Positions 42,612-61,248 of a DNA stretch of 64,000 nucleotides are shown piece after piece. Both the position numbers and the translations under genes were made by a program. How positions within the stretch are numbered: the first letter of the stretch is position 1; every line of letters begins with the position of its first letter. Location: positions 1 to 64,000 of IMG/VR virus record IMGVR_UViG_3300033551_000003; one strand, written 5' to 3'. The notes under the pieces are model-generated. The model worked only from the letters and a program-made list of their open reading frames with translations. It ran no database searches and was not told the DNA's origin. The DNA comes from a virus.

Positions 42612-42676
42612 GCGAAACCGGGATAAAACCCGGTCTGCCGGTAAAGACCCTAGTCCGGCACCGATGAGCAAGGGTC
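42612..42676 (+). ncRNA. Type II hammerhead ribozyme HH1
   Basis: Order is GC-GAAA, stem III ACCGGG/CCCGGT, cleavage C at 42635, stem I TGCCGG/CCGGCA, core CCGATGA, GC, so stem II is open and pairs GC/GC. Loop I GACCCT pairs with AGGGTC just before AGGAG. U4 of the core is C, which may slow cleavage. Would free the first gene from the leader. Confidence 0.85.
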
Positions 42677-42692
42677 AATTAGGAGCAAAATC

Positions 42693-42935
42693 ATGACTAC
42701 CAAATCTGATGACGTTTACGGCCTCATTACCTGGGGCGTGGACGTGAAGGAATTCAATACCTTGAAAGCCGCCCAAAAGGCACTCGCTACCAGCGAGTAT
42801 TCGGCGGCGATCTTCAAAGGTCCGCGTGGCGAAGTCTGCGGTGGCGAGCAAATCGCCGAGAACGACAAGCCCGAGGCCCCTTGGGAACTGACGAGGAAGA
42901 CCATCGCGAAGAACCTCAAGGTCGAGCGAATCTGA
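42693..42935 (+). CDS. Small protein of ribozyme operon
   Basis: 80 residues (start MTTKSDDVYGLITWGVDVKE). Beta-alpha pattern with a KAAQKALATSEYSAAIFKG segment; ends TIAKNLKVERI. Ribosome-binding site AGGAG 7 nt upstream, directly after HH1. No family recognised. Confidence 0.65.
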   Translation: MTTKSDDVYGLITWGVDVKEFNTLKAAQKALATSEYSAAIFKGPRGEVCGGEQIAENDKPEAPWELTRKTIAKNLKVERI

Positions 42936-42949
42936 CCTCGCCCCAAGAA

Positions 42950-43015
42950 GCGAAACCGGGGTACGCCCCGGTCTGCCGGTAATGATCCTAGTCCGGCACT
43001 GATGAGCACGGATCA
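42950..43015 (+). ncRNA. Type II hammerhead ribozyme HH2
   Basis: Consensus core GAAAC...CTGATGA, stem II GC/GC, stem III ACCGGGG/CCCCGGT, cleavage C 42973, stem I TGCCGG/CCGGCA. Pseudoknot TGATCC (loop I) with GGATCA before TTAGGAG. All catalytic positions intact. Confidence 0.92.
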
Positions 43016-43030
43016 ATTAGGAGAATACCA

Positions 43031-43228
43031 ATGAAAGTCGTTCTATTTAACGCAACAAAGACGTTGATGACTGAACTTCATATACCAGTCAACAGAAAGG
43101 CTGAGATAATTGTCTATGATGGAGCAGTATTTGTGCTCGCTGAGACTCCGGCAGAGATTAAGGAAATCTGCTACGTCCAAGAGTCCAACACTGTATTCGT
43201 AGACCCTTATGAGCAGCCTGTACATTGA
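43031..43228 (+). CDS. Small beta-rich protein
   Basis: 65 residues (start MKVVLFNATKTLMTELHIPV). Predicted mostly beta strands; ends VFVDPYEQPVH. Flanked by HH2 and HH3. No family. Confidence 0.62.
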   Translation: MKVVLFNATKTLMTELHIPVNRKAEIIVYDGAVFVLAETPAEIKEICYVQESNTVFVDPYEQPVH

Positions 43229-43294
43229 GCGAAACCGGGGTAAAACCCGGTCTGCCGGTAATGATCCTAGTCCGGCACTGATGAGCACGGATCA
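43229..43294 (+). ncRNA. Type II hammerhead ribozyme HH3
   Basis: Nearly identical to HH2: stem II GC/GC, stem III ACCGGG/CCCGGT, cleavage C 43252, stem I TGCCGG/CCGGCA, core CTGATGA, pseudoknot TGATCC/GGATCA. Begins on the last base of the upstream stop codon. Confidence 0.92.
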
Positions 43295-43309
43295 ATTAGG
43301 AGAATTAAA

Positions 43310-43567
43310 ATGACTTATTATCCAAGATTGAGTGTTACCACACCAATTAGTCTTGAGTACCTCAACAACCACGTACCCCAAAAGGTCGTGAAGGAGGTCC
43401 TCAAAAAGTTCGGAATAAGCGATCAGGTGATAAGCCTGGTCGACTGGAACAAATCGCGATTCCCCGGAGTCGCGTTTGAGCAGGCCTGCCCACGCTTGAA
43501 GAACGTGTGGGACTGGCCGACCTATGACACACCATTTATGAGCAGCCTGAAGCGAAACCGGGTTTAA
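43310..43567 (+). CDS. Hypothetical protein ending inside HH4
   Basis: 85 residues (start MTYYPRLSVTTPISLEYLNN), helical middle QKVVKEVLKKFGISDQV. The last codons (KRNRV-stop) are the GCGAAACCGG strand of HH4 and the TAA lies in its stem III loop. Unknown function. Confidence 0.62.
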   Translation: MTYYPRLSVTTPISLEYLNNHVPQKVVKEVLKKFGISDQVISLVDWNKSRFPGVAFEQACPRLKNVWDWPTYDTPFMSSLKRNRV

Positions 43568-43616
43568 CCCGGTCGCCAGAGAAACTGATCCCACCCTGGC
43601 CTGATGAGCAGGGATC
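43552..43616 (+). ncRNA. Type II hammerhead ribozyme HH4
   Basis: Stem II GC/GC, stem III ACCGGG/CCCGGT with the upstream TAA in its loop, cleavage C 43574, shorter stem I GCCAG/CTGGC with a 16-nt loop, core CTGATGA. Pseudoknot GATCCC/GGGATC. Confidence 0.9.
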
Positions 43617-43635
43617 GTTTTAGGAGAAGAAAACC

Positions 43636-43779
43636 ATGACTACGAAGGAAAAGGTTGTTACCGCGTCCACCGCTCTGGGCGGATTCCTGGCCTACATCAT
43701 CGTGGCGACCACCATCAATCAGGTCATCGCGAGTGTGGTCAACGGAGCCGTCCAGAAGTACGTGTTCAAGACGAGCTAA
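43636..43779 (+). CDS. 47-residue membrane protein
   Basis: Start MTTKEKVVTASTALGGFLAY. One hydrophobic helix (about 12-36, LGGFLAYIIVATTINQVIAS) and a basic tail. Good TTAGGAG site from HH4. Below usual ORF length limits. Possible inner-membrane peptide. Confidence 0.6.
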   Translation: MTTKEKVVTASTALGGFLAYIIVATTINQVIASVVNGAVQKYVFKTS

Positions 43780-43783
43780 CAAC

Positions 43784-43866
43784 GGGGCCAGGAGGCCCCC
43801 GGCCACAATGATCCACCTCTACGCGGTGTGGCTAGAAACGGTTCAAGGGAACCGGCTAACGGATCA
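43784..43866 (+). ncRNA. HDV-like ribozyme HDV1 with upstream capping hairpin
   Basis: Nested double pseudoknot: P1 GGCCAC (43801-43806) with GTGGCT (43828-43833) including the diagnostic first-position G-U wobble; P2 TGATCC with GGATCA (43861-43866); P3 ACC/GGT with L3 TCTACGC; P4 CGGTTC/GAACCG; J4/2 GCTAA with the putative catalytic C at 43856. Predicted cleavage is just 5' of G43801. A GGGGCC-AGGA-GGCCCC hairpin (43784-43799) ends one base before the cut, mimicking hammerhead stem III. Replaces a hammerhead at this position. Confidence 0.82.
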
Positions 43867-43882
43867 ATTTAGGAGAAGTAAA

Positions 43883-44155
43883 ATGTGCAATACACACTTA
43901 ACGCAGTTTAAGCTGCGTTGCACCCGAGGGGATGTTGATATTTTTGACGGCCCCGATGGAGTGTACTGGCAGAGTATCATCTACCGAGAGGAAGACGGGT
44001 ACTTCTGCGAGCCGTGCAACGGCCCCTTCAAAACGGCGGCCGAAGCACTAATGCATGCCTACCCCATCTTGGAGCATACCAGATGGCTGTTGGCAAACGA
44101 TGTTTTCGAATTCAAAGCCTACAATGAAGTGGGCACAACCAAAATGGGGGAATAA
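43883..44155 (+). CDS. Hypothetical protein with Cys motif
   Basis: 90 residues (start MCNTHLTQFKLRCTRGDVDI). Contains YFCEPCNGPFKTAAEALMHAY, a CxxC followed by a helix. Its TAA lies in the loop of the hairpin preceding HDV2. Unknown function. Confidence 0.6.
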   Translation: MCNTHLTQFKLRCTRGDVDIFDGPDGVYWQSIIYREEDGYFCEPCNGPFKTAAEALMHAYPILEHTRWLLANDVFEFKAYNEVGTTKMGE

Positions 44156-44226
44156 ACCCCCTGGCAGCAACGATCCACCTCTACGTGGTGTGGCTAGAAA
44201 CGGTTCAAGGGAACCGGCTAACGGAT
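44146..44226 (+). ncRNA. HDV-like ribozyme HDV2, weakened P1
   Basis: Nearly identical to HDV1 from P2 onward (P3 ACC/GGT, L3 TCTACGT, P4 CGGTTC/GAACCG, J4/2 GCTAA). P2 is GATCC/GGATC. The P1 5' strand is GGCAGC opposite GTGGCT, giving one A-G mismatch and two wobbles, so activity may be reduced. A GGGGG-aataaa-CCCCC hairpin (44146-44161) with the upstream stop codon in its loop precedes the predicted cut at 44162/44163. Confidence 0.68.
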
Positions 44227-44244
44227 CAATTTAGGAGAAACCAG

Positions 44245-44397
44245 ATGACTAAGAATAGTCGTGAGACCAAGCCGCAGAAGCGGGAGGATCTCAAACTGGA
44301 AAGACCAGATTACACGCTTTCGGTGAAGGAAGAGCAAAAAAGCCCAACCGAGATATGGATGAGGCTTACATTCAAACCAAAGCGAAACCCGCAGTAA
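44245..44397 (+). CDS. 50-residue basic protein
   Basis: Start MTKNSRETKPQKREDLKLER; Lys/Arg/Glu-rich. Last codons KRNPQ-stop are encoded by the 5' half of HH5, with TAA in its stem III loop. Unknown. Confidence 0.55.
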   Translation: MTKNSRETKPQKREDLKLERPDYTLSVKEEQKSPTEIWMRLTFKPKRNPQ

Positions 44398-44446
44398 GCG
44401 GGTCTGCCGGTAAAGACCCTAGTCCGGCACTGATGAGCAAGGGGTC
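44382..44446 (+). ncRNA. Type II hammerhead ribozyme HH5
   Basis: Stem III is ACCCGC/GCGGGT rather than ACCGGG/CCCGGT, a compensatory change supporting pairing. Cleavage C 44404, stem I TGCCGG/CCGGCA, core CTGATGA, stem II GC/GC, pseudoknot GACCC/GGGTC. Upstream stop sits in the stem III loop. Confidence 0.92.
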
Positions 44447-44461
44447 AATTAGGAGAAACCA

Positions 44462-44725
44462 ATGCCTACAGAAATCGAAGTTGAGTTCGACTGTGACAGC
44501 GAACTGGTGACCAGAGCCAAGGCTGTCGTTGGAGCCTTCGGAGGTGTGGTTTTGGACGTATTCCACGTTACCGCTGATAATGAGATCGTTGACGATCAGC
44601 CAGCGGATGATGGGTGGACTTTTATGTCCTTTAACATTTCCGACGACCAGGCCCATAACGCCGCCGTAGCTTTGAGCGCTGCCGGGTACGACGTGGTCGT
44701 CCACGTGTACCCAGCTGAGCACTAA
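44462..44725 (+). CDS. Ferredoxin-like fold protein, paralogue 1
   Basis: 87 residues (start MPTEIEVEFDCDSELVTRAK). Beta-alpha-beta repeats with AKAVVGAFGGVVLD and AHNAAVALSAAGYDVVV. Same layout as the next two genes and the start of the 45479 gene, so a local duplication family. Function unknown. Confidence 0.62.
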   Translation: MPTEIEVEFDCDSELVTRAKAVVGAFGGVVLDVFHVTADNEIVDDQPADDGWTFMSFNISDDQAHNAAVALSAAGYDVVVHVYPAEH

Positions 44726-44727
44726 AA

Positions 44728-44787
44728 GTCGAAACCGGGAACCAACCCGGTCGCCTGGTTAGAACCAGGCCTGATGAGACTTAACCC
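44728..44787 (+). ncRNA. Type II hammerhead ribozyme HH6 (short loop)
   Basis: Stem II GTC/GAC, stem III ACCGGG/CCCGGT, cleavage C 44752, stem I GCCTGG/CCAGGC with only a 6-nt loop (TTAGAA), core CTGATGA. The loop-leader pseudoknot is poor here (TTA with TAA at best), the one member lacking a clear one. Confidence 0.85.
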
Positions 44788-44806
44788 AAATTTAGGAGAA
44801 TGAAAC

Positions 44807-45055
44807 ATGACAAAACGATCAACCGTTGAACTTACCTTCCAGGGTTACGACCCTAAGAAGGACGACAAGGCGATTAAGATCGCCGAGAAGTTCGGTGGGG
44901 AGCTTCTGGGAACCGGCGTGTGGATCAATGGTCCGCAAGCCGACCTACGGGACATGGAGTTTGCATTTCCAACCACGAAGGCCAAGGCAGCAGCCAAGGC
45001 CCTTAAGGAGGCAGGCTTCAAAGTCGAGGCTCCCCGGACTTACGAAGACGACTGA
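44807..45055 (+). CDS. Ferredoxin-like fold protein, paralogue 2
   Basis: 82 residues (start MTKRSTVELTFQGYDPKKDD). Contains AIKIAEKFGGELLGTGVW and AKAAAKALKEAGFKVEAP, matching paralogue 1. The ATG 7 nt past AGGAG is chosen. Unknown role. Confidence 0.62.
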   Translation: MTKRSTVELTFQGYDPKKDDKAIKIAEKFGGELLGTGVWINGPQADLRDMEFAFPTTKAKAAAKALKEAGFKVEAPRTYEDD

Positions 45056-45061
45056 AAAATC

Positions 45062-45130
45062 GTCGAAACCGGGATAAAACCCGGTCTGCCGGTGAGAGAC
45101 CCTATTCCGGCACTGATGAGACACGGGTCT
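45062..45130 (+). ncRNA. Type II hammerhead ribozyme HH7
   Basis: Stem II GTC/GAC, stem III ACCGGG/CCCGGT, cleavage C 45086, stem I TGCCGG/CCGGCA, core CTGATGA, pseudoknot AGACCC/GGGTCT before TTAGGAG. Confidence 0.93.
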
Positions 45131-45144
45131 TTTAGGAGAATACC

Positions 45145-45396
45145 ATGAAAAGCAAACGAAAGACTATTGACGTGTCATACCCTCTTCCGCTTAACGAGGA
45201 ATACGATGATGCTGTCTGTGACGTGGCCAAGGACCACTACGGACAGGAGCTTGGAAGCGGTGCAGGTTTTGGATTTCGAGATCACGATTTTTCGTTCTCG
45301 GCCAAACGCGCCGACCAGGCTTACAAAGCCTTCAAAGCGCTGCCCATCAAGGGCATCGAGGTTTCCGAACCTTATGAAGAAGAGGATGATGACTAA
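45145..45396 (+). CDS. Ferredoxin-like fold protein, paralogue 3
   Basis: 83 residues (start MKSKRKTIDVSYPLPLNEEY). Segments VAKDHYGQELGSGAGFGF and ADQAYKAFKALPIKGIEV align with paralogues 1 and 2; acidic C-terminus EEEDDD. Unknown role. Confidence 0.62.
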   Translation: MKSKRKTIDVSYPLPLNEEYDDAVCDVAKDHYGQELGSGAGFGFRDHDFSFSAKRADQAYKAFKALPIKGIEVSEPYEEEDDD

Positions 45397-45398
45397 AA

Positions 45399-45460
45399 GT
45401 CGAAACCGGGCTAGTCCCGGTCGCGTGGAGATGGTCTCCCACGCCTGATGAGACAGACCA
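45399..45460 (+). ncRNA. Type II hammerhead ribozyme HH8
   Basis: Stem III ACCGGG/CCCGGT, cleavage C 45422, stem I changed to GCGTGG/CCACGC (compensatory), core CTGATGA, stem II GTC/GAC, pseudoknot TGGTCT/AGACCA. Confidence 0.92.
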
Positions 45461-45478
45461 ATTTAGGAGAACACAAAC

Positions 45479-46129
45479 ATGAAAATAATACACGTTAGAT
45501 TCGTCTACACGCCCACCGAGAGAAGGCCCGAAAAAGAACGCGAAGTTCTGAAAGCCATCAAGCAACTCGGGGGCAAGGACATCAAACAGGAAACCGAAGA
45601 AATTAGCCTCGTGTACTCCCACGAAATTCGCTTCTCCATCGAGGACGAGGCGAGTGAGGTGGCAACTGCTGCTATGCGGCAGTTCGTAACCAAGGAGAGT
45701 AGAGGGGGTTGGGGTAACTACAAGTCGTTTAGTATTGTTGTATTCGGCCCCTACTCCCCAGAAGAGGACCCTGACGCTCCTGCCCGGCTCCCGCCAAAGG
45801 TTGCGCTGGCTCTTGAAGCCACTGCGCGCTACGAGGCGCGTGACGGGTCGGAGGAGGAGCTTAAATCCTGGATGGACAGCCTAACCAACGGCGACATCCC
45901 GAAGCACCAGGGTTCCAATCCCAAGAACGCGGTGATTGACTATCAACGCGCCGAGCGGTTTTTACAGACCCTCACCGATGAGCAAATCTCGACGATGGCA
46001 CTAGGCGTTTACGACTACTCCGAAGGGGAGCGTTGGAAACGCGCCTTGCCTCTGTTCGAGCATTCGGAAGAGGGTGTGTATGCTGCTTGGGCGCTACACG
46101 CCATGTTCTGGGAAGTTTGGGGCTCCTAA
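45479..46129 (+). CDS. Two-domain protein with N-terminal ferredoxin-like unit
   Basis: 216 residues (start MKIIHVRFVYTPTERRPEKE). Residues 1-100 resemble the preceding paralogues. Residues about 110-216 (QRAERFLQTLTDEQISTMAL and following) form a helical domain of unknown type. Largest of the paralogue cluster. Confidence 0.62.
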   Translation: MKIIHVRFVYTPTERRPEKEREVLKAIKQLGGKDIKQETEEISLVYSHEIRFSIEDEASEVATAAMRQFVTKESRGGWGNYKSFSIVVFGPYSPEEDPDAPARLPPKVALALEATARYEARDGSEEELKSWMDSLTNGDIPKHQGSNPKNAVIDYQRAERFLQTLTDEQISTMALGVYDYSEGERWKRALPLFEHSEEGVYAAWALHAMFWEVWGS

Positions 46130-46139
46130 AGCCCCAAAT

Positions 46140-46203
46140 GTCGAAACCGGGCTTAGTCCCGGTCGTCGGGAACCTGATCCTACCCGGCTTGAAAAGACAG
46201 GAT
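46140..46203 (+). ncRNA. Type II hammerhead HH9 with C3U/G8A core
   Basis: Stem III ACCGGG/CCCGGT, cleavage C 46164, stem I GTCGGG/CCCGGC, stem II GTC/GAC, pseudoknot GATCC/GGATC. The core reads TTGAAAA instead of CTGATGA: positions 3 and 8 change together from C-G to U-A, keeping the C3-G8 tertiary pair geometry. Confidence 0.82.
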
Positions 46204-46228
46204 CATAACCTCCACTTAGGAGAGAACT

Positions 46229-46579
46229 ATGTCTAATATCGAAAGCACGACCACGAAGCCGACCAAGAAGGCCTCGCCCCCGAAGAAGGTGAAGGACGTG
46301 GCTCCGGTCCCCCAGACCGAGCCCAAGGCAACGCCCCCCAAGGCTGAGCCCAAGGTGTCGCCCCCCAAGGCCGAGACCAAGGCCGACGGCAAGGCCGCTC
46401 CGAAGAGCCCCAAGATCACGCTCCTCGCGAAGGAGTGCCCCTCCAAGAAGGGCACCAATCGTGCGAAGCGCTGGTCCAAGCTCGAGAACGGCATGACCGT
46501 CGCCGAGGCTCGCGAGGAGGGCGTTCCGTCCAGCTACCTTAATCGTATGGCGGATGCCGGCCACCTCAAGATCGGCTGA
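46229..46579 (+). CDS. Histone-like protein with C-terminal helix-turn-helix
   Basis: 116 residues. Lys/Pro/Ala-rich N-terminal 65 residues with repeated PPKAE-K units, then a C-terminal domain (LAKECPSKKGTNRAKRWSK ... GVPSSYLNRMADAG) shared with the 31230 protein on the other operon. Likely DNA binding. Confidence 0.65.
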   Translation: MSNIESTTTKPTKKASPPKKVKDVAPVPQTEPKATPPKAEPKVSPPKAETKADGKAAPKSPKITLLAKECPSKKGTNRAKRWSKLENGMTVAEAREEGVPSSYLNRMADAGHLKIG

Positions 46580-46583
46580 GCGT

Positions 46584-46663
46584 GTCGAAACCCTGGGAGG
46601 GGGCAATCCCCCTCCCTTGGTTTGCTGGAACCTGGTCCTACCAGCACTGATGAGACAGGACCA
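46584..46663 (+). ncRNA. Type II hammerhead ribozyme HH10, long stem III
   Basis: Stem II GTC/GAC; stem III extended by GGGAGGGGG-caat-CCCCCTCCC; H17 is U, so the cut follows 46622; stem I TGCTGG/CCAGCA; core CTGATGA; pseudoknot TGGTCCT/AGGACCA. The long stem would leave a very stable 3' end on the histone-like mRNA. Confidence 0.9.
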
Positions 46664-46678
46664 ATTTAGGAGTTTCAC

Positions 46679-47047
46679 ATGAAACAGGAAGTTGCCGAAG
46701 CGTGGGTCAAGGACCTACGCGAAACTACTGCAAAGCAAACCTCGGGCATGCTATTCGACGGTGTAGGCTATTGTTGCCTGGGCCGTTTGTGCGTCGTGCT
46801 CGGCGTTGGGTTCACACGTGCCCCCGATGACTCCGAGTGGTATTGGCTAATCGACGACGGCTCTGGAAAGGGCGACGTTTTGTCCCAGTCCGTTACAGAC
46901 GAGGCCGGGATGAAGTCGAAGACTGGAATATTCTGCGAGCCTGATAAGCCGGAATACCAGCCATTCGACCTTGCCCAGCTTAACGACCAGGGCAAGACGT
47001 TCAAAGAGATTGCCGACATCATCGAAAAGTATTGGGAGCAGATATGA
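46679..47047 (+). CDS. Conserved phage protein with CCLG motif
   Basis: 122 residues. WVKDLRETTAKQTSGMLFDG-VGYCCLGRLCVVLG is a pattern found in many small phage proteins (W-hxxLR...CCLGxLC). No biochemical role known. Unlike most neighbours it is a recognisable widespread family. Confidence 0.7.
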   Translation: MKQEVAEAWVKDLRETTAKQTSGMLFDGVGYCCLGRLCVVLGVGFTRAPDDSEWYWLIDDGSGKGDVLSQSVTDEAGMKSKTGIFCEPDKPEYQPFDLAQLNDQGKTFKEIADIIEKYWEQI

Positions 47048-47050
47048 ACC

Positions 47051-47116
47051 GTCGAAACCGGGGTACACCCCGGTCTGCTGGAACCTGGTCCTACCAGCAC
47101 TGAGGAGACAGGACCA
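47051..47116 (+). ncRNA. Type II hammerhead ribozyme HH11
   Basis: Stem II GTC/GAC, stem III ACCGGGG/CCCCGGT, cleavage C 47075, stem I TGCTGG/CCAGCA, core CTGAGGA (N7 is G, allowed), pseudoknot TGGTCCT/AGGACCA. Leader SD is TTAGGGGA here. Confidence 0.92.
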
Positions 47117-47132
47117 ATTTAGGGGATACACA

Positions 47133-47231
47133 ATGATTCGTGATATCGTAACTGAACTGGCCGCGTTGTGCTACATCGTGGCCATCACTGGCGCCATCGT
47201 ACTAACGGTGGTTGCCTTCCTCGGACAATAG
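47133..47231 (+). CDS. 32-residue membrane peptide
   Basis: Start MIRDIVTELAALCYIVAITG, one membrane helix to the C-terminus. AGGGGA site from the HH11 leader. Micro-protein of unknown function, co-transcribed with the next gene without a ribozyme between them. Confidence 0.5.
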   Translation: MIRDIVTELAALCYIVAITGAIVLTVVAFLGQ

Positions 47232-47244
47232 AGGAGAAGACAAA

Positions 47245-47406
47245 ATGGAAATTCGAATGAGCCCTGCGGACTTGGAGATGGTAATTGATGCACTGGCGTA
47301 TGCACGTTGGTACTCTGCCACTAGCAAAGAGGAAGAGGACGGCTACTCCGTGCTTATCGAACATCTCAAGCTCCAACAGGACAACCAGTCGAAACCGGGG
47401 GAATAA
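47245..47406 (+). CDS. 53-residue helical protein
   Basis: Start MEIRMSPADLEMVIDALAYA. Own GAGGAGA site 13 bp after the previous stop. One of the few genes in 42.6-61.3 kb with no ribozyme in front. C-terminal SKPGE is encoded by the 5' strand of HH12. Confidence 0.55.
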   Translation: MEIRMSPADLEMVIDALAYARWYSATSKEEEDGYSVLIEHLKLQQDNQSKPGE

Positions 47407-47453
47407 CCCCGGTCTGTCAGGAATGAGCGCCCTGGCACCGATGAGACAGCTCA
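47388..47453 (+). ncRNA. Type II hammerhead ribozyme HH12
   Basis: Stem II GTC/GAC, stem III ACCGGGG/CCCCGGT with the upstream TAA in its loop, cleavage C 47414, stem I TGTCAGG/CCTGGCA, core CCGATGA (U4 is C), pseudoknot TGAGC/GCTCA. Confidence 0.85.
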
Positions 47454-47471
47454 AAATTAGGAGAATGAAAC

Positions 47472-47966
47472 ATGAATACCGCTGTACAAGACAGCACACC
47501 AAACACAATAGCCACCATCACAAAGTGGTGGCAAGGCATAATCGAGGCGAGTACTGCGTGTCTGTTCGGCTGGGCGTTCAGATTCCCAGACGTGCAGGAA
47601 GCAGTACTCATTCGCATCAAGTGTGGGACACCGTTGGGCGAGGCCCTTGACAGCTTTGTCGAAGACAAGCTCGTCGACCTCGACGCTCGCGACATCAACG
47701 GGTTCGAGGAGTCCGTCGAAAAGATAGTCGATTCGGCTGTCGACGACGCTCTCAAGAACCTGGACGACGACATCGACACCGCCGTGGCAAACGCGCTCGG
47801 CGATATTGATGAGAAGGTCGAAGATGCTGTCGAGGAAGCATTCAATAAACTGGCTATCACCGATACGGTGACACGGATTATTGAAGGCATGGCCGCGAAT
47901 AAGGACCACGACCTGGTCCGGCTGATCGCCCACCGTGTCTCTGAATTGTCGAAACCGGGGGAGTAA
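47472..47966 (+). CDS. Acidic helical protein with Asp-rich repeats
   Basis: 164 residues. N-terminal hydrophobic segment (ASTACLFGWAFRFPDVQEAV) then about 90 residues of acidic heptads (FEESVEKIVDSAVDDALKNL, DIDTAVANALGDIDEKVED). Ends SKPGE from the HH13 sequence. Unknown; looks like a coiled-coil. Confidence 0.58.
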   Translation: MNTAVQDSTPNTIATITKWWQGIIEASTACLFGWAFRFPDVQEAVLIRIKCGTPLGEALDSFVEDKLVDLDARDINGFEESVEKIVDSAVDDALKNLDDDIDTAVANALGDIDEKVEDAVEEAFNKLAITDTVTRIIEGMAANKDHDLVRLIAHRVSELSKPGE

Positions 47967-48012
47967 CCCCGGTCTGCCAGAGATGAGCGCCTGGTACTGA
48001 TGAGACTGCTCA
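47948..48012 (+). ncRNA. Type II hammerhead ribozyme HH13
   Basis: Stem II GTC/GAC, stem III ACCGGGG/CCCCGGT with the upstream stop in the loop, cleavage C 47974, stem I TGCCAG/CTGGTA (one G-U), core CTGATGA, pseudoknot TGAGC/GCTCA. Confidence 0.92.
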
Positions 48013-48030
48013 AATTAGGAGGTAAGACCA

Positions 48031-48462
48031 ATGGCAAAGACTAAGCCAGCTTACATCACTCGTAAGCTAACGGTCGCCGACGCGGTTAGCGAAGCCTACT
48101 CAATTCTAGAGGAGCTCGCTGGCGAAATGCGGGAGGCCTTTGATAACACTCCCGAGAGTCTTCAGCAGAGTGCCGTGGGCGAAGCCCGCGAAGCTGCTGC
48201 CGATGCTCTCGAGGGGTTGTCAGAGCCCAACGTACTTGATGAATTGGGCCGACTGGAGTTCGAATACACCGAACCCCCACCCAAGCGCAAGCAGTCCCGC
48301 CGCGATCGTCGTGATCAAGCCACCGCCTTGTTGGGTGCCGTTATAGCGGTAGTTGACAATGTCGATGACGAGAACGCCGATGACGCCGTCGAGCTCCGCG
48401 ATGAATTGGATGACTTGACGTCAGAAGCAGATGCCGTCGAGTTTCCAGGCATGTACGGCTAA
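48031..48462 (+). CDS. Acidic helical protein
   Basis: 143 residues (start MAKTKPAYITRKLTVADAVS), mostly helical and acidic with a basic patch PKRKQSRRDRRDQA in the middle. Very strong AGGAGG site. Function unknown. Confidence 0.58.
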   Translation: MAKTKPAYITRKLTVADAVSEAYSILEELAGEMREAFDNTPESLQQSAVGEAREAAADALEGLSEPNVLDELGRLEFEYTEPPPKRKQSRRDRRDQATALLGAVIAVVDNVDDENADDAVELRDELDDLTSEADAVEFPGMYG

Positions 48463-48465
48463 CCA

Positions 48466-48533
48466 GTCGAAACCGGGGTAAGTCCCCCGGTCACCTGGAA
48501 ACCGGTCCTACCAGGTCTGAGGAGACAGGACCG
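48466..48533 (+). ncRNA. Type II hammerhead ribozyme HH14
   Basis: Stem II GTC/GAC, stem III ACCGGGG/CCCCGGT, cleavage C 48492, stem I ACCTGG/CCAGGT, core CTGAGGA, pseudoknot CGGTCCT/AGGACCG. Confidence 0.92.
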
Positions 48534-48548
48534 ATTAGGAGAATGAAA

Positions 48549-49055: not shown

Positions 49056-49071
49056 ACTTTCTTGACCACGC

Positions 49072-49327
49072 CGACGTGCATAAGTAACCCTATCAACGCC
49101 AGCGTGTCAGAACTATACAGAAGTCCAAGGAATTCTAGCGCGTCAATACACACCAGAAACCCAAACAGCCCGAGCGTGTCAGGACGTACCACAAAACCCG
49201 TGGAATGAGAGCGTGCCGTCTATACGAAGTAACCCTGAGTGGTTTAGTGCGCTAAGAGAGGGGAGCAATCCATGACACAGGAGCGCGCCGTTAGGAATAA
49301 GCAACCCAAACTTCAGTAGCGCGCCAA
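49072..49327 (+). repeat. Alternating-box repeat array A4
   Basis: About seven 36-nt units, plus-strand sense AGTAACCC / AGCGTGCC boxes with variable spacers, some boxes degenerate (AGAAACCC, AGCGCGTC). The last unit, from CGCCGTTAGGAATAAG to TAGCGCGCCA, is identical to one in array A6. Ends 8 bp before HH15. Confidence 0.82.
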
Positions 49328-55028: not shown

Positions 55029-55032
55029 GGCT

Positions 55033-55104
55033 GTCGAAACCAAAGGGGGGTATACTCCCTTTGGTCGGTGGGAACTGACCTACCCACCCTGATGAGACAG
55101 GTCA
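55033..55104 (+). ncRNA. Type II hammerhead ribozyme HH25
   Basis: Stem III ACCAAAGGG/CCCTTTGGT (compensatory), cleavage C 55066, stem I GGTGGG/CCCACC, core CTGATGA, stem II GTC/GAC, pseudoknot TGACCT/AGGTCA. Confidence 0.93.
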
Positions 55105-55118
55105 TTTAGGAGATGTAA

Positions 55119-55478
55119 ATGGCTGGAAACCCCAACAGCGCCCGTGCTCGCTTCAAAGCCTATTTGAAGGAGCATGGAGAGGAGGCCGCCCTAAAGTTCG
55201 GGGCGGAAATAGGGATGCAACCTGCCCGCATAAAGCGGCTTATTCGCGTATTCACCGGCCAGGCCCCGATCAAGCAGAAACCCTCCACCGTGGAGGTGAC
55301 TGTGGAACCCGTTAGGTTTGGTCGGTTTAAGCCGCAGGTTTACCTATTTGGAGACAAGACCTTGGTTGCTCGGTATGTAGCTAAAGGCCCCGAGCAGAGT
55401 GAGGTTAAGTTCCCGAATGGTAACGTGCAGACGGTTGACAATGATTGGCTAACGCCTTTCGAAACCGAGGAGGAGTAA
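55119..55478 (+). CDS. Hypothetical protein ending inside HH26
   Basis: 119 residues (start MAGNPNSARARFKAYLKEHG). N-terminal helix-turn-helix-like part (ALKFGAEIGMQPARIKRLIR), C-terminal beta domain (KPQVYLFGDKTLVARYVAKG). The last codons 'ETEEE-stop' lie in the stem III region of HH26. May bind DNA. Confidence 0.58.
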   Translation: MAGNPNSARARFKAYLKEHGEEAALKFGAEIGMQPARIKRLIRVFTGQAPIKQKPSTVEVTVEPVRFGRFKPQVYLFGDKTLVARYVAKGPEQSEVKFPNGNVQTVDNDWLTPFETEEE

Positions 55479-55530
55479 CTCCTCGGTCACTGGGGTGCTG
55501 ATCCGACCCCGGTCTGACGAGATAGGATCC
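55459..55530 (+). ncRNA. Type II hammerhead ribozyme HH26
   Basis: Stem II shortened to TC/GA, stem III ACCGAGGAG/CTCCTCGGT, cleavage C 55488, stem I ACTGGGGT/ACCCCGGT, core CTGACGA (N7 is C), pseudoknot GATCC/GGATC. Confidence 0.87.
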
Positions 55531-55547
55531 TTAGGAGACAAAGAAAG

Positions 55548-56564
55548 ATGGCTACAATAGACGATGTTGCTGCCTTGCGCCTGATGTGCAAGGGAGCGTA
55601 TGACCTGCAAAAGCTGAGAATGCAATGCGGGTTGAGACTTTGGGCGAACTTTAACGCCAAGCTCAAGCAGCAGGCCAACCCCGCTGCCGAAGACACAGAA
55701 ACCGATGCCGACGAGATGTCGGAGGAGGCCGAGAAGCTGATCGCTCAGCTAAAGGCCTCCTACGTGCGCCTTACCGATGGTATCGCGCGCAACCGCACAC
55801 TCCCGGCCCAGAAGGGCTTCAATGGAGACGAGTTGATCTCGACCTTCACGGAGCTCACACTGGTGGACCAATATATCCAACTGGAGAAGCAGGAGGCCCG
55901 CCACTTTCGCCAGATGACCCCGCTGCTGGAAGAGATACCGATCTACTCGACGTATCTCAAGCAGGAGCGTGGCATCGGCCCCGCGATGGCGTCCGTCCTT
56001 ATAAGCTACCTCGACCCCGCCAAAGCCGACCACATTTCCGCCTTCTGGCGGTATGCTGGCCTGGACGTGGGGCCGGATGGCATGGGCCGGTCGCGCCGCG
56101 AGGAGCACCTGGTCGAGCGAACCTACATCGACAAGAACGGACAGCAGAAGACGCGAATGGGCGTCACCTACAATCCGTTCCTGAAGACCAAGCTCGCCGG
56201 AGTGCTGGCGTCGTCCTTTCTGCGGCAAAAGTCGCGGTGGAGTGATGTGTACGGAAACTACAAGCATCGCATCACCACCGACCCGAACCGCACGAAGGTT
56301 ACGGTCACGGAATGGAAGCGTATGCACAAGGCAGGCGGCATGGACGCCGTCCGTGGGGTTTGGACCCCCGGGCGTATCCACAACGCCTCGTCTCGGTATA
56401 TGCTGAAGATGTTCCTGGCCGAACTCTGGACGAAGTGGCGCACGTTGGAAGGACTGCCCCTGACGCCCACGTATCACGAGGCCGTCATGGGTCACGTCCA
56501 CACGCCATCCGCGCAGGAGCAGCGCCGTAGCGCCGAGGGTGATGGGGCCACAACCCACACCTAA
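55548..56564 (+). CDS. IS110/IS116-type transposase C-terminal domain protein
   Basis: 338 residues. The segment ERGIGPAMASVLISYLDPAK...FWRYAGLDVGPDG (about 145-185) is the helix-hairpin-helix core of the IS110/IS116/IS902 C-terminal domain. The N-terminal RuvC-like DEDD catalytic domain of IS110 recombinases is not visible; instead there is a helical region with an acidic insert (EDTETDADEMSEEAE). It looks like a phage-domesticated DNA/RNA-binding derivative. Immediately followed by arrays A5 and A6. Confidence 0.72.
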   Translation: MATIDDVAALRLMCKGAYDLQKLRMQCGLRLWANFNAKLKQQANPAAEDTETDADEMSEEAEKLIAQLKASYVRLTDGIARNRTLPAQKGFNGDELISTFTELTLVDQYIQLEKQEARHFRQMTPLLEEIPIYSTYLKQERGIGPAMASVLISYLDPAKADHISAFWRYAGLDVGPDGMGRSRREEHLVERTYIDKNGQQKTRMGVTYNPFLKTKLAGVLASSFLRQKSRWSDVYGNYKHRITTDPNRTKVTVTEWKRMHKAGGMDAVRGVWTPGRIHNASSRYMLKMFLAELWTKWRTLEGLPLTPTYHEAVMGHVHTPSAQEQRRSAEGDGATTHT

Positions 56565-56584
56565 GGCAAAACGGCTCGCCACGG

Positions 56585-56882
56585 GAGCAAAGTAACCCAT
56601 CGCACCTCAGCGAGCCATATGTCGCATGTACTCCACAACTGGTTAGCGTGCCGATACAAGCACTAGCAACCCAGAGGATGCTAGCGTGCCAAAGCCACTT
56701 AGTAGCTCAGGCACTTTCAGCGTGTCATCTAGGTCCAGCAACCCAGGTGAGATCAGCGTGCCGTCAGGAGGAAAGTAACCCAAGATCGAAGAGCGCGCCA
56801 GCCTCTCACAGTAACCCGTGGCACGATAGCGTGCTAGGAATTGGGAGTAACCCAGATTTCCTCAGCGCGCCAGACCACCAGT
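56585..56882 (+). repeat. Alternating-box repeat array A5
   Basis: About seven to eight units, strict 9-9-9-9 blocks in places (for example TAGCGTGCC, 9 nt, box 2, 9 nt). The first part near 56585-56640 is degenerate. It begins 21 bp after the IS110-like stop and ends directly at HH27. Confidence 0.82.
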
Positions 56883-56949
56883 GTGTCGAAACCGGAGGTA
56901 CGCCTCCGGTCACCGGGAACCTGATCCTACCCGGTATGATTAGACAGGA
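56883..56949 (+). ncRNA. Type II hammerhead HH27 without downstream gene, C3A/G8U
   Basis: Stem III ACCGGAGG/CCTCCGGT (compensatory), cleavage C 56909, stem I ACCGGG/CCCGGT, stem II GTC/GAC, pseudoknot GATCC/GGATC. The core reads ATGATTA, so positions 3 and 8 form A-U instead of C-G. No TTAGGAG or ORF follows; array A6 does. It would separate A5-bearing mRNA from A6 RNA. Confidence 0.8.
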
Positions 56950-56965
56950 TCTGGCCTACCCGTTT

Positions 56966-57568
56966 TAGAAACCCAATGGCCAAAAGCGCACCGTGAAAGG
57001 ATAGTAAACCCTGTCCGTCTAGTGCGCCAAAAGATTTTAGCAACCCATTAAGAAACAGCGCACCGATAGGAGTTAGTAACCCAACGTCCTTACAGTGCGC
57101 CGTTAGGAATAAGCAACCCAAACTTCAGTAGCGCGCCATATTGGATTAGTAATCCAAACCCTCGTAGCGCGCCAACAAAACGAAGTAATCCATGTCACGC
57201 CAGCGTGCCAAAGGAAACTAGCAACCCATTGCGCAAGCCAGCGTGCCAGTCTGTGATAGTAACCCACAACAGAAAAGTGTACCGTGAAAGCAGAAGCTAA
57301 ACCCAATGACGCATAGTGGGCCATGAGTACGCAGTAACCCATGTGTACAAAGCTTGTCATAGAAAACAAGAAACCCGTCGCGCGACAGCGCGCCGTAGAA
57401 CACGAGAAATCCGTCAATCGACAGCGTGCCAGAAGTACGAAAGTAAACCAAAAAAGCATAGCGCGCCGAGAAGTCTTAGTTACCCACGGAAACGGAGCGC
57501 GCCAAAATTTCACAGTAACCCACAACAGAAAAGCGCGCCATAGCCATGTAGTAACCCACTAGCTCATA
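56966..57568 (+). repeat. Alternating-box repeat array A6
   Basis: About 17 units of the 36-nt repeat (transcript-sense AGTAACCC and AGCGCGCC boxes). Shares an identical stretch of about 40 nt with A4 (near 57099-57139) and repeats one spacer internally (after GTAACCCACAACAGAAAA at 57260 and 57512). Bounded by HH27 and HH28, so it would be released as an RNA of about 690 nt (56910-57595). Confidence 0.85.
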
Positions 57569-57570
57569 GT

Positions 57571-57637
57571 GTCGAAACCGGGGTACGCCCCGGTCGTCGG
57601 GAACCCGATCCTACCCGACCTGATGAAGACAGGATCG
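57571..57637 (+). ncRNA. Type II hammerhead ribozyme HH28
   Basis: Stem II GTC/GAC with one extra A after the core (CTGATGA-A-GAC), stem III ACCGGGG/CCCCGGT, cleavage C 57595, stem I GTCGGG/CCCGAC, pseudoknot CGATCCT/AGGATCG. Confidence 0.88.
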
Positions 57638-57667
57638 CAACTTAGGAGATAAACAAGGAAAACCACA

Positions 57668-58714
57668 ATGGCATCAATCAACATGGTTGAAGCAAGACAG
57701 ATGCTGATAGACATGTACGAGGCCAACGAGCCTTTCATGTTTCTCGGCAAGCCCGGAATGGGTAAGACCTCTATGGTCGAGGACGTCTGTCACTGCCTCG
57801 GCATCGGCTTCATCGACTTCCGCCTGACCCTTAAGGATCCGGTGGAGGTTGGTGGTATGCGCGTGCCGGACGTTAAGACGGGGATGCTCCGGCATTTTGT
57901 GCCGGAGGATATACCCGATGTAAAGCGCCACGGTCCCAAGGGGATCTTCTTGTTCGACGAAATCAATGTAGTTTCTATGCTACTCCAGTCCACGGCTTAT
58001 GGAATCATCCAGGAGCGCCGGATTGGGTCGTACAAGATTGATCTTGGTTGGGTACCGATGGCGTCGGGCAACCTCGTCACCGATCGGGCAGCGGCCCAAC
58101 GCCTATCCACGGCGCTGGCAAACCGCTTCAATGTCCAGGTCGTCGAGCCACACCTGCCGTCATGGCTGAAGCAATACGGGTCTGAGCACGTGGATTCGCG
58201 GGGAACTGCGTTTCTGCGGTTTAGGCCAGCGTTGTTCAGCTGCATGCCGGGCCAGGTCATAACGATCGACGACAAGACCCAGACCCCGGTCTCCAAGGAC
58301 GAGACGGCCTTTCCGTCGGCCCGCTCCTGGACCAAGGCGTTCAAGTTCATCGATAAGCCCCCGACCTATCGGCGCAAGATATTCGCTGGCTATGTTGGCG
58401 AAGTCCCGGCCGATGAGTTCGAGGCCTATTGGCGAATCATGGAGAACGCCGTGTCCGTCGAGCAGGTTATCGCCGACCCGAAGGGTGCGCCAATACCCAA
58501 GGAGGAGGATGCCGGCACCTACTATGCGGTGACCGGCATGCTGTCGAGGGCGATGGACTTGAAGAACATCAACCCGATCATGACCTACGTCGGCCGTATG
58601 CACAAGGACTACCAAGTCGTTTGTGTCACCGATGCGATGCGGCGTGATGAAGCGCTGCGTAACACGCGGGCGTACGGCAACTGGGCGGTCAACAACCAGG
58701 ACGTCATGATGTGA
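57668..58714 (+). CDS. MoxR-type AAA+ ATPase
   Basis: 348 residues. Walker A GKPGMGKT (27-34), Walker B GIFLFDEIN (about 96-104), sensor 1 region PMASGNLVTDR, and an arginine-rich helix AAAQRLSTALANRF. MoxR ATPases work with VWA-domain partners as chaperones. The VWA partner is encoded two genes downstream (59080). Likely remodels a target complex, in virion assembly or host takeover. Confidence 0.85.
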   Translation: MASINMVEARQMLIDMYEANEPFMFLGKPGMGKTSMVEDVCHCLGIGFIDFRLTLKDPVEVGGMRVPDVKTGMLRHFVPEDIPDVKRHGPKGIFLFDEINVVSMLLQSTAYGIIQERRIGSYKIDLGWVPMASGNLVTDRAAAQRLSTALANRFNVQVVEPHLPSWLKQYGSEHVDSRGTAFLRFRPALFSCMPGQVITIDDKTQTPVSKDETAFPSARSWTKAFKFIDKPPTYRRKIFAGYVGEVPADEFEAYWRIMENAVSVEQVIADPKGAPIPKEEDAGTYYAVTGMLSRAMDLKNINPIMTYVGRMHKDYQVVCVTDAMRRDEALRNTRAYGNWAVNNQDVMM

Positions 58715-58729
58715 CAAATCCCTGACCAT

Positions 58730-58794
58730 GTCGAAACCGGGGTACGCCCCGGTCGCCTGGAACCCGGTCCTACCAGGCCTGATGAGACAGGACC
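58730..58794 (+). ncRNA. Type II hammerhead ribozyme HH29
   Basis: Stem II GTC/GAC, stem III ACCGGGG/CCCCGGT, cleavage C 58754, stem I GCCTGG/CCAGGC, core CTGATGA, pseudoknot GGTCCT/AGGACC. Confidence 0.93.
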
Positions 58795-58810
58795 AATTAG
58801 GAGAACCAAT

Positions 58811-58984
58811 ATGCCGACACTTCGCTTCAACGATGGCGTTAGCATCAACACGGATGGACACCTTCGCATCATTCACCTGAAGGACGGCTACTACGTGGTG
58901 GGCGAGGGCTTGTGCATGCCCGTCGACACCCGGGCCGAGGGCGAGGAGTTCATCGCCGAGGAGAAGAAGCGCAACGCCAAGTGA
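58811..58984 (+). CDS. 57-residue protein between MoxR and VWA genes
   Basis: Start MPTLRFNDGVSINTDGHLRI; beta-rich with a charged helical end (GEEFIAEEKKRNAK). Resembles small phage ORFs with a GHLRI-type hairpin. Missed by length cut-offs. Unknown; might be an adaptor for MoxR-VWA. Confidence 0.6.
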   Translation: MPTLRFNDGVSINTDGHLRIIHLKDGYYVVGEGLCMPVDTRAEGEEFIAEEKKRNAK

Positions 58985-58991
58985 AACGTAT

Positions 58992-59065
58992 GTCGAAACT
59001 AGGGGGCCGAAAGGCCTCCTAGTCGGTGAGGAACTGACCGGCCTCGCCCTGATGAAGACAGGTCA
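58992..59065 (+). ncRNA. Type II hammerhead ribozyme HH30
   Basis: Long stem III ACTAGG...GGCC-gaaa-GGCC...CCTAGT closed by a GNRA loop, cleavage C 59024, stem I GGTGAGG/CCTCGCC, core CTGATGA plus one extra A, stem II GTC/GAC, pseudoknot TGACC/GGTCA. Confidence 0.9.
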
Positions 59066-59079
59066 TTTAGGAGAATAGA

Positions 59080-60585
59080 ATGCAGACAATCGAGATAAAC
59101 AACCCCTTATTGGCACGAGTAGTACGCGCGAGAGCGTTCCTACTCCGTAGCCACCCGTTCTTTGGAAACCTGGCCATGCGGCTAAGGATCCGGGAACACA
59201 ATGAGCTTAGAGTCAAAACCATGGCAACGGACGGGACATTCCTGTACTGGTGCCGTGAGTTCTTGGAGAAAGTTAGCGACAGCATGCTTTTGTTTGCTGT
59301 CGCCCACGAGGTACTCCACTGCGCGCTGTGCCATCATACCCGTCGTGGTACGAGGGACCCGCTGCTGTGGAATATCGCGTGCGATCACGTCGTTAACCTG
59401 CTGCTAAGGGCCGCAGGGTTCCGTCCACCGGACTGGGCCTACTGCGACCCCAAGTATACTGGTCTGAATGCGGAACAAGTTTACCGCCTTCTGTACGAGG
59501 AACGTAAGCAGCAGCAACAGCAACAACCGGAGCCAACGCCCCAACCTGGTCAGGACGACCAGCAGGCGACCGGCTCCGGCGACCAAGACCCCGATCAGGA
59601 GGCCGACCCCAAGGGCGGCTCCCCCGGGGATGACGATGAAGAAGGTGACGAAGGAGAAGAGCAATGCGGTTCCAACGGTGGAGCTTCATCCGACCAGGAT
59701 TCCAAGTCTGGTTCGGACAGCGAGGATGGGACGTCCGGTACCTCAACAGAGGACGATGCGCCCCAGGATGCTGGCTCTTCTTCCGAGGGCGGGTCTGCGG
59801 GGAGTCCCACATCCGACTCTTCGGATGGGACGCCTGGCCGATCTGGTCTCCCCCAATCCCATGGCGATCCTGGCGGATGCGGCGAAGTTCTAGACGCCGC
59901 GCCGTCCTATGATGACACCAAATTGTCAGAAGCCGAGGGTGAGTGGCAGACCTACGTCCGTCAAGCTATCAACGTTGCCCGCAAAGCGGGGGAAGGCCGG
60001 TTACCGGGCTTCCTCGAGGAAGTAATCGACACGTTGAACGACCCCCGCACCGATTGGCGTCAAGCCCTTCGGGAGTGGGTGGACTACTCTAATACCAAGG
60101 ACTACACCTGGACGACACCGAACCGCCGTATGTTCGCGTTGGGGTACATAACCCCCGGCATGGTCAGCGATGGACTTAACAAGGTGGCGTTTATCATCGA
60201 CTCCTCGGGGTCTGTTCACACCGAGTGGTTGAAGAAGTTCGGCGGTGAAGCCCAAGCCGCCCTCGACGATGGGGCAATCGACAACGCAATTGTAATCTTT
60301 GCCGATGATGGCATCCACCGTATTGAAGAATACAGTAAGGGTGACATCATCGACTGGACTGTCCAGGGGCGCGGCGGAACTAGCTTCAGCCCCGCCCTGG
60401 GTTGGCTGATGGAGAACGTTCCCGATCTGTCGGGGGCGGTCTACTTTACCGACCTGGACAGCACGGACTTTGGACCGCAGCCGACCTTCCCACTTCTGTG
60501 GGCGGCCTATGGTCCCGATCCGAATGAACTGCAGAGGTTAATTGCGCGGTTGCCGTTCGGCGAGTGTATCGAACTGGTCGACTAA
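59080..60585 (+). CDS. VWA-like metallopeptidase-domain protein (DUF2201-type)
   Basis: 501 residues. N-terminal domain with HEVLH (76-80) in an AHEVLHCALCHH helix, resembling DUF2201 putative metallopeptidases. A long low-complexity linker (about 145-275) rich in Gln, Asp, Ser and Gly follows. The C-terminal VWA-like domain has MIDAS motif DSSGS (about 373-377). This is the usual partner of MoxR ATPases, encoded two genes upstream. Catalytic HExxH-type residues look intact (HEVLH). Confidence 0.85.
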   Translation: MQTIEINNPLLARVVRARAFLLRSHPFFGNLAMRLRIREHNELRVKTMATDGTFLYWCREFLEKVSDSMLLFAVAHEVLHCALCHHTRRGTRDPLLWNIACDHVVNLLLRAAGFRPPDWAYCDPKYTGLNAEQVYRLLYEERKQQQQQQPEPTPQPGQDDQQATGSGDQDPDQEADPKGGSPGDDDEEGDEGEEQCGSNGGASSDQDSKSGSDSEDGTSGTSTEDDAPQDAGSSSEGGSAGSPTSDSSDGTPGRSGLPQSHGDPGGCGEVLDAAPSYDDTKLSEAEGEWQTYVRQAINVARKAGEGRLPGFLEEVIDTLNDPRTDWRQALREWVDYSNTKDYTWTTPNRRMFALGYITPGMVSDGLNKVAFIIDSSGSVHTEWLKKFGGEAQAALDDGAIDNAIVIFADDGIHRIEEYSKGDIIDWTVQGRGGTSFSPALGWLMENVPDLSGAVYFTDLDSTDFGPQPTFPLLWAAYGPDPNELQRLIARLPFGECIELVD

Positions 60586-60592
60586 TGGGTGA

Positions 60593-60658
60593 GTCGAAAC
60601 CGGGGTACGCCCCGGTCTGCTGGAACCTGGTCCTACCAGCACTGAGGAGACAGGACCG
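60593..60658 (+). ncRNA. Type II hammerhead ribozyme HH31
   Basis: Stem II GTC/GAC, stem III ACCGGGG/CCCCGGT, cleavage C 60617, stem I TGCTGG/CCAGCA, core CTGAGGA, pseudoknot GGTCCT/AGGACC. Confidence 0.93.
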
Positions 60659-60672
60659 ATTAGGAGAATGAA

Positions 60673-60954
60673 ATGAACAAGAGCAAAGACAAGGAGCGGG
60701 TAGCTTGGATGCACGCCGCCATCGAACTAAACGCCAAGCGTGAAGGCTGGTCGTTATTCGAGTGCGATGACGGTCGCCTACGCATCCAACGCCTGGATTT
60801 TCCATACGACTCTACGGGACGCCCCATCGATCCACTATTTGACAGCGACGAGTCCGCCGTGCAATTCGTCAAGGACCTCGCTGATACAGGGTCGTCCTTT
60901 CACCAAGTTACGCTTCGTCTGCACGGGATGAAGGTGTCGAAATCTGGAGAGTAA
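60673..60954 (+). CDS. Small protein ending in a decayed ribozyme
   Basis: 93 residues (start MNKSKDKERVAWMHAAIELN). Its last codons VSKSGE-stop come from GTGTCGAAATCTGGAGAGTAA-like sequence, which is the 5' edge of a hammerhead (GTCGAAA) with the rest missing. Unknown function. Confidence 0.58.
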   Translation: MNKSKDKERVAWMHAAIELNAKREGWSLFECDDGRLRIQRLDFPYDSTGRPIDPLFDSDESAVQFVKDLADTGSSFHQVTLRLHGMKVSKSGE

Positions 60955-60956
60955 AA

Positions 60957-61178
60957 ATGCACACGTACCGACATTCCTTCGATGCGTTAGAAGAGTTCCC
61001 AAGTAAATGGGAAACCGGCCTTTGGATTACCCACAAGGACGGTAATTATTGGCGTACGGTCGCCAGCTTTGACGCCGAGTGGAAGGCAGCGTTGTACGCC
61101 TCCTTCCTCAACGGCGGTAAGCCACCCATCGGTGTGCTGAACGAGCTCTTCGCAGGCGCCAATATCAGCTTCGAATGA
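60957..61178 (+). CDS. Small hypothetical protein
   Basis: 73 residues (start MHTYRHSFDALEEFPSKWET), Trp-rich, with AALYASFLNGGKPPIGVLNE. ATG only 2 bp after the upstream stop; GGAGAG site lies in the upstream coding end where a ribozyme seems to have been lost. Confidence 0.55.
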   Translation: MHTYRHSFDALEEFPSKWETGLWITHKDGNYWRTVASFDAEWKAALYASFLNGGKPPIGVLNELFAGANISFE

Positions 61179-61180
61179 AA

Positions 61181-61248
61181 GTCGAAACCGGGGGTGTAAC
61201 CCCGGTCACGGATGGGGTGGTTCCCCACCGTCTGATGAAGACAAACCA
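61181..61248 (+). ncRNA. Type II hammerhead ribozyme HH32 (last)
   Basis: Stem II GTC/GAC with an extra A, stem III ACCGGGG/CCCCGGT, cleavage C 61207, stem I ACGG...GGGG/CCCC...CCGT with one bulged A, small loop TGGTT pairing with AACCA upstream of TTAGGAG. The final ribozyme of the block. Confidence 0.87.

Follow-up and report, generated by a model that had tools for sequence, protein, structure and literature searches.

The window analysed here comprises bases 1-64000 of the IMG/VR virus record IMGVR_UViG_3300033551_000003, which has 64,814 bases in total. Its right arm carries a 19-kb operon in which 34 ribozymes, namely 32 type II hammerheads and two hepatitis delta virus (HDV)-like elements, stand between the genes. 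This is the most extreme case that we found of a phage operon partitioned by ribozymes. Most proteins of the operon are small and belong to no known family; among the others are a MoxR-like ATPase and a DUF2201 metallopeptidase/VWA protein. The genes are unrelated to one another, except for one paralogous pair, whereas the ribozymes are related. The phage is divergent, with a DNA polymerase 36% identical to its counterpart in Edwardsiella phage vB_EpM_ZHS. No near-matches of the ribozyme region were found at the DNA level among cultured phages. No homologues of the operon proteins 59080, 57668, and 54144 were found in IMG/VR, so that an orthologous locus free of ribozymes could not be compared.

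Detection and fold of the hammerheads

The Rfam family RF02276 has a gathering threshold of 37 bits. Seven copies exceed it in a scan of the 64 kb and eight in a scan of the single record, and at least 12 more fall below it; the single-record scan gives 20 matches at E <= 10. A covariance model was built from 20 window copies and used to search the window. It returns exactly 32 full-length type II hammerheads with E <= 2.4e-8, which occupy only the + strand, from 42610 to 61256; the next-best match has E = 0.21. With an independent descriptor, the - strand gives no hammerheads, and none of 20 shuffles gives more than one. No ribozymes were detected in the left arm, either by Rfam (bases 1-42000) or by the 20-copy model. 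A chance or compositional artefact was rejected on the basis of the shuffles, the one-strand bias, and the covariation described below. An assembly artefact is unlikely, since the last hammerhead is identical in an independent contig (L240) and contigs with 99.9% identity span the left arm; no second contig spanning 42.6-61.1 kb was found.

An earlier note on this DNA counted 32 type II hammerheads and two HDV-like ribozymes, and the covariance model together with matches to RF02682 bears out this count. The Rfam covariance search that the note proposed as a check gave a divided answer. Seven to eight hammerheads pass the gathering score, but the HDV-like elements stay below the RF02682 cut-off of 44.

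All 32 hammerheads follow the type II order: the 5' strand of stem II, GAAA, a closed stem III, U16.1 and H17, a closed stem I, CUGANGA, and the 3' strand of stem II. Their mean identity is about 62%. Standard pairs fill 98.5% of the stem cells in the 32-copy alignment; since this alignment was fitted to the structure, the slide and shuffle controls weigh more than the raw pairing. The covariation score is 0.462, compared with 0.120 (standard deviation 0.014) in shuffles, and it is lost when the partners are slid. Double changes occur in 10 of the 15 stem pairs. This strong covariation indicates that the hammerhead structure is under selection, and it supports the identity, the type II order, and the predicted cut after C17 that the note had read from the sequence.

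A pseudoknot is predicted between loop I and the 3' tail directly before the Shine-Dalgarno (SD) sequence. The mean best pairing is 6.4 with the own tails and 5.1 with swapped tails, and reaches at most 5.7 over 1000 swaps; the own tail thus wins in all 1000 shuffles. The loop-I pseudoknot is required for fast cleavage (Perreault et al., PMC3088659).

GAAA is conserved in all copies, and the core is fully canonical in 19 of them. Coordinates are given below with the nucleotide preceding the predicted cut in brackets; all elements lie on the + strand. Copies with neither a variant nor a stop codon in the stem III loop include hammerheads 2 and 3 of the series, 42948-43022 (C42973) and 43227-43301 (C43252). 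They are followed by 44727-44797 (C44752), which has the weakest pseudoknot of the set, 45061-45137 (C45086), and 45398-45468 (C45422), which has the top Rfam score of 48 bits. Further copies of this kind are 47050-47124 (C47075), 48465-48540 (C48492), 49943-50014 (C49968), 52824-52894 (C52849), 53694-53767 (C53719), 55032-55111 (C55066; long stem III), 58729-58802 (C58754), and 60592-60665 (C60617).

The remaining 13 copies depart from the ideal core, H17, or junction, several of them in ways known from active ribozymes. H17 is U at 46622 in the copy at 46583-46671, which also has a long stem III. U4C occurs four times: in hammerhead 1 at 42610-42684 (C42635), and at 47387-47462 (C47414), 49334-49405 (C49359), and 53177-53248 (C53202). 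U4C is weak, yet sufficient for a viroid (PMC3088659). C3 or G8 is changed in three copies. The core is UUGAAAA at 46139-46221 (C46164), AUGAUUA at 56884-56955 (C56911), and UUGAAGA, with a U3-G8 wobble, at 54054-54132 (C54079). The first two of these changes are complementary (U3-A8 at 46143 and A3-U8 at 56888), which suggests that selection keeps the C3-G8 pair in unusual copies as well; active U3-A8 covariants have been described (PMC3088659). A9C at 52163-52238 (C52190) is likely to give the weakest core. The stem II junction has an extra A at 57570-57647 (C57595), at 58991-59072 (C59024), and in the last hammerhead of the series at 61180-61256 (C61207). It has an A-A mismatch at 10.1-11.1 in the copy at 51433-51505 (C51459). 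Extra bases at this junction are also present in the copies of Streptomyces phages.

HDV-like elements in the hammerhead slot

Two elements with predicted cuts at 43800/43801 (copy 1, 43784-43866) and 44162/44163 (copy 2, 44146-44228) occupy the same slot as the hammerheads. Copy 1 opens with a P1 of seven pairs including a G1-U wobble, followed by a P2 of six pairs and a P4 of six pairs. Its P3/L3 fits the family consensus, and its J4/2, GCUAAC, contains the presumed catalytic C. Copy 2 matches it in these features, apart from one mismatch in P1 and one in P2. The RF02682 scores are 34.3 and 28.1 bits, and because the cut-off is not reached, both elements are called HDV-like by structure and are not assigned to RF02682.

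GC hairpins are located immediately 5' of both cuts, GGGGCC-AGGA-GGCCCC-C in copy 1 and GGGGG-AATAAA-CCCCC-T in copy 2, and the loop of the latter contains the upstream stop codon. These hairpins appear to replace the stem III of the hammerhead, rebuilt when the ribozyme class changed. HDV-like elements fold without any upstream sequence, yet a hairpin has been added. Thus, the hairpin 3' end of the upstream message seems to be selected in itself; this is the best sequence evidence on the point.

Placement between genes

The intergenic positions claimed in the note hold for all 34 predicted cuts. Each has a stop codon on its 5' side and an SD sequence and start codon on its 3' side, and lies outside every called open reading frame (ORF), although 78.9% of the stretch is coding. 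The cut is mostly 7-41 nt past the stop codon; the exceptions come after two non-coding arrays. Mostly one gene lies between successive cuts, two genes four times, and no gene once. Both HDV-like elements and 29 of the 32 hammerheads are followed by TTAGGAG. Elsewhere on the window's + strand, this motif occurs just twice, and it is absent from the - strand of the left arm. The note had nearly all elements followed by TTAGGAG and a start codon. This is accurate for the motif in 31 of 34 cases and for a directly following gene in 33 of 34, the exception being hammerhead 56884, which precedes no gene. The hammerhead at 47050 stands before an ORF of 32 amino acids with the SD sequence AGGGGA. Gene starts without a ribozyme are those at 47245, 50606, about 51805, and 60957, and all after 61266.

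Nine hammerheads carry the upstream stop codon within the loop of stem III, 7-10 nt before the cut. Besides 47387, 51433, and 52163, these are hammerhead 4 at 43550-43625 (C43574), 44380-44454 (C44404), 47947-48020 (C47974), 50285-50360 (C50313), 50758-50831 (C50783), and 55457-55536 (C55488). In these copies, the last codons of the upstream gene run through GAAA and the 5' strand of stem III. Ribosomes finishing the upstream gene should therefore unfold these nine ribozymes, and cleavage may await translation. The geometry in general is consistent with the note's description of an upstream mRNA that would end in the stem III hairpin and a downstream mRNA that would begin with stem I. Strong internal promoters were not found in the operon, and terminator-like sites on the sense strand are few and weak.

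Surroundings of the operon

A perfect 41-bp inverted repeat flanks the ribozyme operon (42532-42572 and 62354-62394), and its right arm is also present in the independent contig L240. The left repeat belongs to a structured leader 5' of the first cut (42240-42635, + strand; RNA fold z = -3.3). Cleavage at the first site would free a leader RNA, and 41 nt of it are complementary to the gene at 62399 in its 5' region. The phage also encodes a NusG homologue (13949-14542, - strand), a possible antiterminator that could support long transcription; together with the structured leader, it would be in keeping with a long unit transcribed under antitermination.

Arrays in which AG[CT]G[CT]GCC and AG[CT]AACCC alternate every 18 nt, with variable spacers of about 10 nt and a period of 36 nt, are found at 49060-49335 (+), 56590-57572 (+), 11044-12912 (-), and 38545-38747 (-). 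No open frame codes through them. The hammerhead at 49334 lies downstream of the first array, and hammerheads 56884 and 57570 bound an RNA of about 685 nt that consists of array alone. About 15 further viral contigs (e.g., L123, L133, L171, L187, and L193) also contain such arrays, with 4-18 exact units. A binding-site array or a decoy RNA is possible.

The left arm encodes a large protein with an Alt-like ADP-ribosyltransferase domain (286-2805, - strand). The stretch 24317-31225 (- strand) encodes a thymidylate-synthase-like protein, 5-hydroxymethyldeoxyuridine (5-hmdU) DNA kinases, and amino acid:DNA transferase homologues, along with a citrate-transporter-like protein. The three kinds of homologues related to DNA modification imply that the phage DNA likely contains hypermodified thymine. 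No tRNA genes were found in the window.

Hammerhead operons in other phages

A pattern scan of IMG/VR found at least 120 stretches with a type II hammerhead. Among the matches listed, whole-record and local searches reveal clusters of 12 (G001/L007), 9 (G031/L111), 8 (G008/L042), 6-7 (G015/L221), and 6 copies (G013), and none near 32; a further cluster (L044) has six hammerheads by Rfam. L007, L221, and L042 have no near-matches at the DNA level in cultured phages. The ribozyme-SD-start design with different leader sequences is seen in L042 and L221. Structured elements that are not hammerheads (L221 3961-4035 and 4248-4325; L042 11885-11955; fold z -2.2 to -3.3) adjoin SD sequences and start codons in these hammerhead operons and are candidates for another ribozyme class. 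Among 111 distinct hammerheads from 80 viral loci, 34 precede an SD sequence and start codon within 60 nt, compared with 11.5% of random positions. The operon design is thus a specialised use of the hammerhead and not a general rule.

The same arrangement recurs in unrelated phages. The cultured Arquatrovirinae phages R4 (NC_019414), Hank144 (L079), Janus, and Pablito, which infect Streptomyces, have 9, 8-9, 11, and 9 type II hammerheads, respectively. Nearly all of these are preceded by a stop codon and followed by an SD sequence and start codon. A single close copy (71.6 bits) stands immediately before a gene in Anoxybacillus phage A403. The covariation score of the Streptomyces-phage alignment, which includes the single A403 copy, is 0.635 versus 0.159. 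The annotated R4 genes gp75.1, gp67.1, and gp60.1 overlie hammerheads (L243 3898-3999, 6855-6947, and 9227-9310) and are probably not real genes. These phages resemble the window in carrying 8-11 hammerheads between accessory genes, but they have about one-third as many, of unrelated sequence, and no HDV-like partners were found. Publications on Streptomyces-phage hammerhead operons were not found in the open-access literature searched, which leaves preprints and most subscription papers outside. A link to the antiphage effect of aminoglycosides was dropped, as the paper concerned merely cites aminoglycoside-hammerhead binding and its S. coelicolor phages are insensitive.

Self-cleaving RNA in a 5' untranslated region controls or insulates a gene in the glmS ribozyme and in RiboJ-type insulators. 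glmS is metabolite-dependent and RiboJ is engineered, whereas no ligand is suggested for the ribozymes in the window. The earlier note regarded a whole operon built in this way as undescribed. This goes too far, given the operons of 6-12 copies in other phages and the smaller prophage clusters reported by Perreault et al. in 2011 (PMC3088659), who already proposed that mRNAs of single genes arise by processing of long phage transcripts. Triple arrays were cleaved in vitro, and one was cleaved in E. coli, in that study. Both systems share type II hammerheads with a loop-I pseudoknot, located between genes and proposed to process a transcript; here too, several co-directional hammerheads flank genes of one putative transcription unit. 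The experiments of 2011 concerned small arrays, whereas the window has 34 elements that serve nearly every gene, two ribozyme classes in one slot, and upstream stop codons in the terminal hairpin. The HDV-like elements are similar to the HDV-like/theta ribozymes of gut phages in being small, in sense orientation, and mostly intergenic (Kienbeck et al. 2024, PMC10879173). However, theta ribozymes with a clear role trim tRNA 3' ends (PMC10879173), and the HDV-like elements of the window take the place of hammerheads in an mRNA operon. The new points are the density and completeness of the ribozyme set, the interchange of hammerhead and HDV-like folds, the placing of stop codons in hairpins, and the similar operons of cultured Streptomyces phages.

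A probable self-cleaving transcript and its alternatives

The identity of the ribozymes, their structural covariation, their intergenic placement, and the interchange of two folds at one position are established. On this basis, we consider it probable that one long + strand transcript of the right arm cleaves itself into mRNAs with structured ends. The 34 ribozymes would cut between genes, mostly during transcription, and release messages of one gene or sometimes two. Each message would begin with a 5'-OH, followed by the stem I hairpin and pseudoknot or the HDV fold and then TTAGGAG, and its 3' end would be a stable hairpin that carries a 2',3'-cyclic phosphate. The advantage is likely to be that each small early or accessory gene becomes an insulated message, with a uniform structured leader and a clean hairpin 3' end, so that mRNA life and dosage are uncoupled from the neighbours. 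Cleavage in the cell, the single transcript, and stabilisation are what we infer from sequence in this scheme.

Several observations weigh against it. Both HDV-like copies fall short of the family gathering score of 44 bits, and copy 2 has the mismatch in P1. Of the 32 hammerheads, 13 are non-ideal, and some of them (A9C at 52163 and A-A at 51433) may be slow or dead; equal activity need not be expected of all 34 elements. Upstream translation may suppress the folding of the nine stop-in-loop copies. The last genes, after 61266, have no ribozymes, and beyond the specialised phages only about 31% of phage hammerheads precede a start codon.

The strongest alternative, which we regard as possible but rather unlikely, is that translation control is selected. 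A uniform structured 5' end would set or time translation, upstream ribosomes would gate cleavage of the copies with a coding 5' half, and the separation of genes would be a by-product. TTAGGAG is essentially confined to the ribozyme module, the pseudoknot strand adjoins the SD sequence, and nine copies overlap the upstream ORF, all of which this explanation would account for. It fits poorly with the HDV-like copies, which keep the SD sequence and yet add a hairpin that could affect only the 3' end of the previous message. Other phages also have a different SD sequence after the same ribozyme (AATGGAG in L042), indicating that the two are separable.

Dispersed DNA repeats could mark the boundaries of gene cassettes for recombination between phages, with self-cleavage incidental or decaying. 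Adjacent copies resemble each other slightly more than copies far apart do (permutation p = 0.004), the genes are unrelated save for the one pair, and copy quality varies, as would be expected of such repeats. Repeats would need neither two unrelated folds in one slot nor a single strand, and the low mean identity coexists with near-complete pairing and many compensatory changes, which makes this explanation improbable. Cleavage for ligation, in which an RNA ligase joins 5'-OH and cyclic-phosphate ends into circular or re-spliced mRNAs, is very improbable: the ends that hammerheads leave are substrates of the RtcB type, and theta-ribozyme phages show an enrichment of RNA ligase (PMC10879173), but no RNA ligase or end-healing enzyme is present among about 45 window proteins scanned, and Perreault et al. 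(PMC3088659) sought circular or spliced products and saw none.

Processing of a long transcript can be extended, more tentatively and at somewhat less than even chances, to a whole phage transcription unit that uses self-cleaving RNA as its standard means of forming 5' and 3' ends. Messages would then be capsules bounded by ribozymes of any fitting fold, each with a 5'-OH structured leader and a stop codon in the 3' hairpin, and some copies would be gated by translation. If this is true, the elements in the corresponding slots of L221 and L042 could be undescribed ribozymes.

The role of hammerheads in bacteria and phages has been a standing question since 2011. The near-universal presence of ribozymes in this operon, the second class in the same slot, and the rebuilt hairpin point to selection for the formation of mRNA ends. 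Since Streptomyces phage R4, a laboratory phage of S. coelicolor, shares this design, the question can be tested directly.

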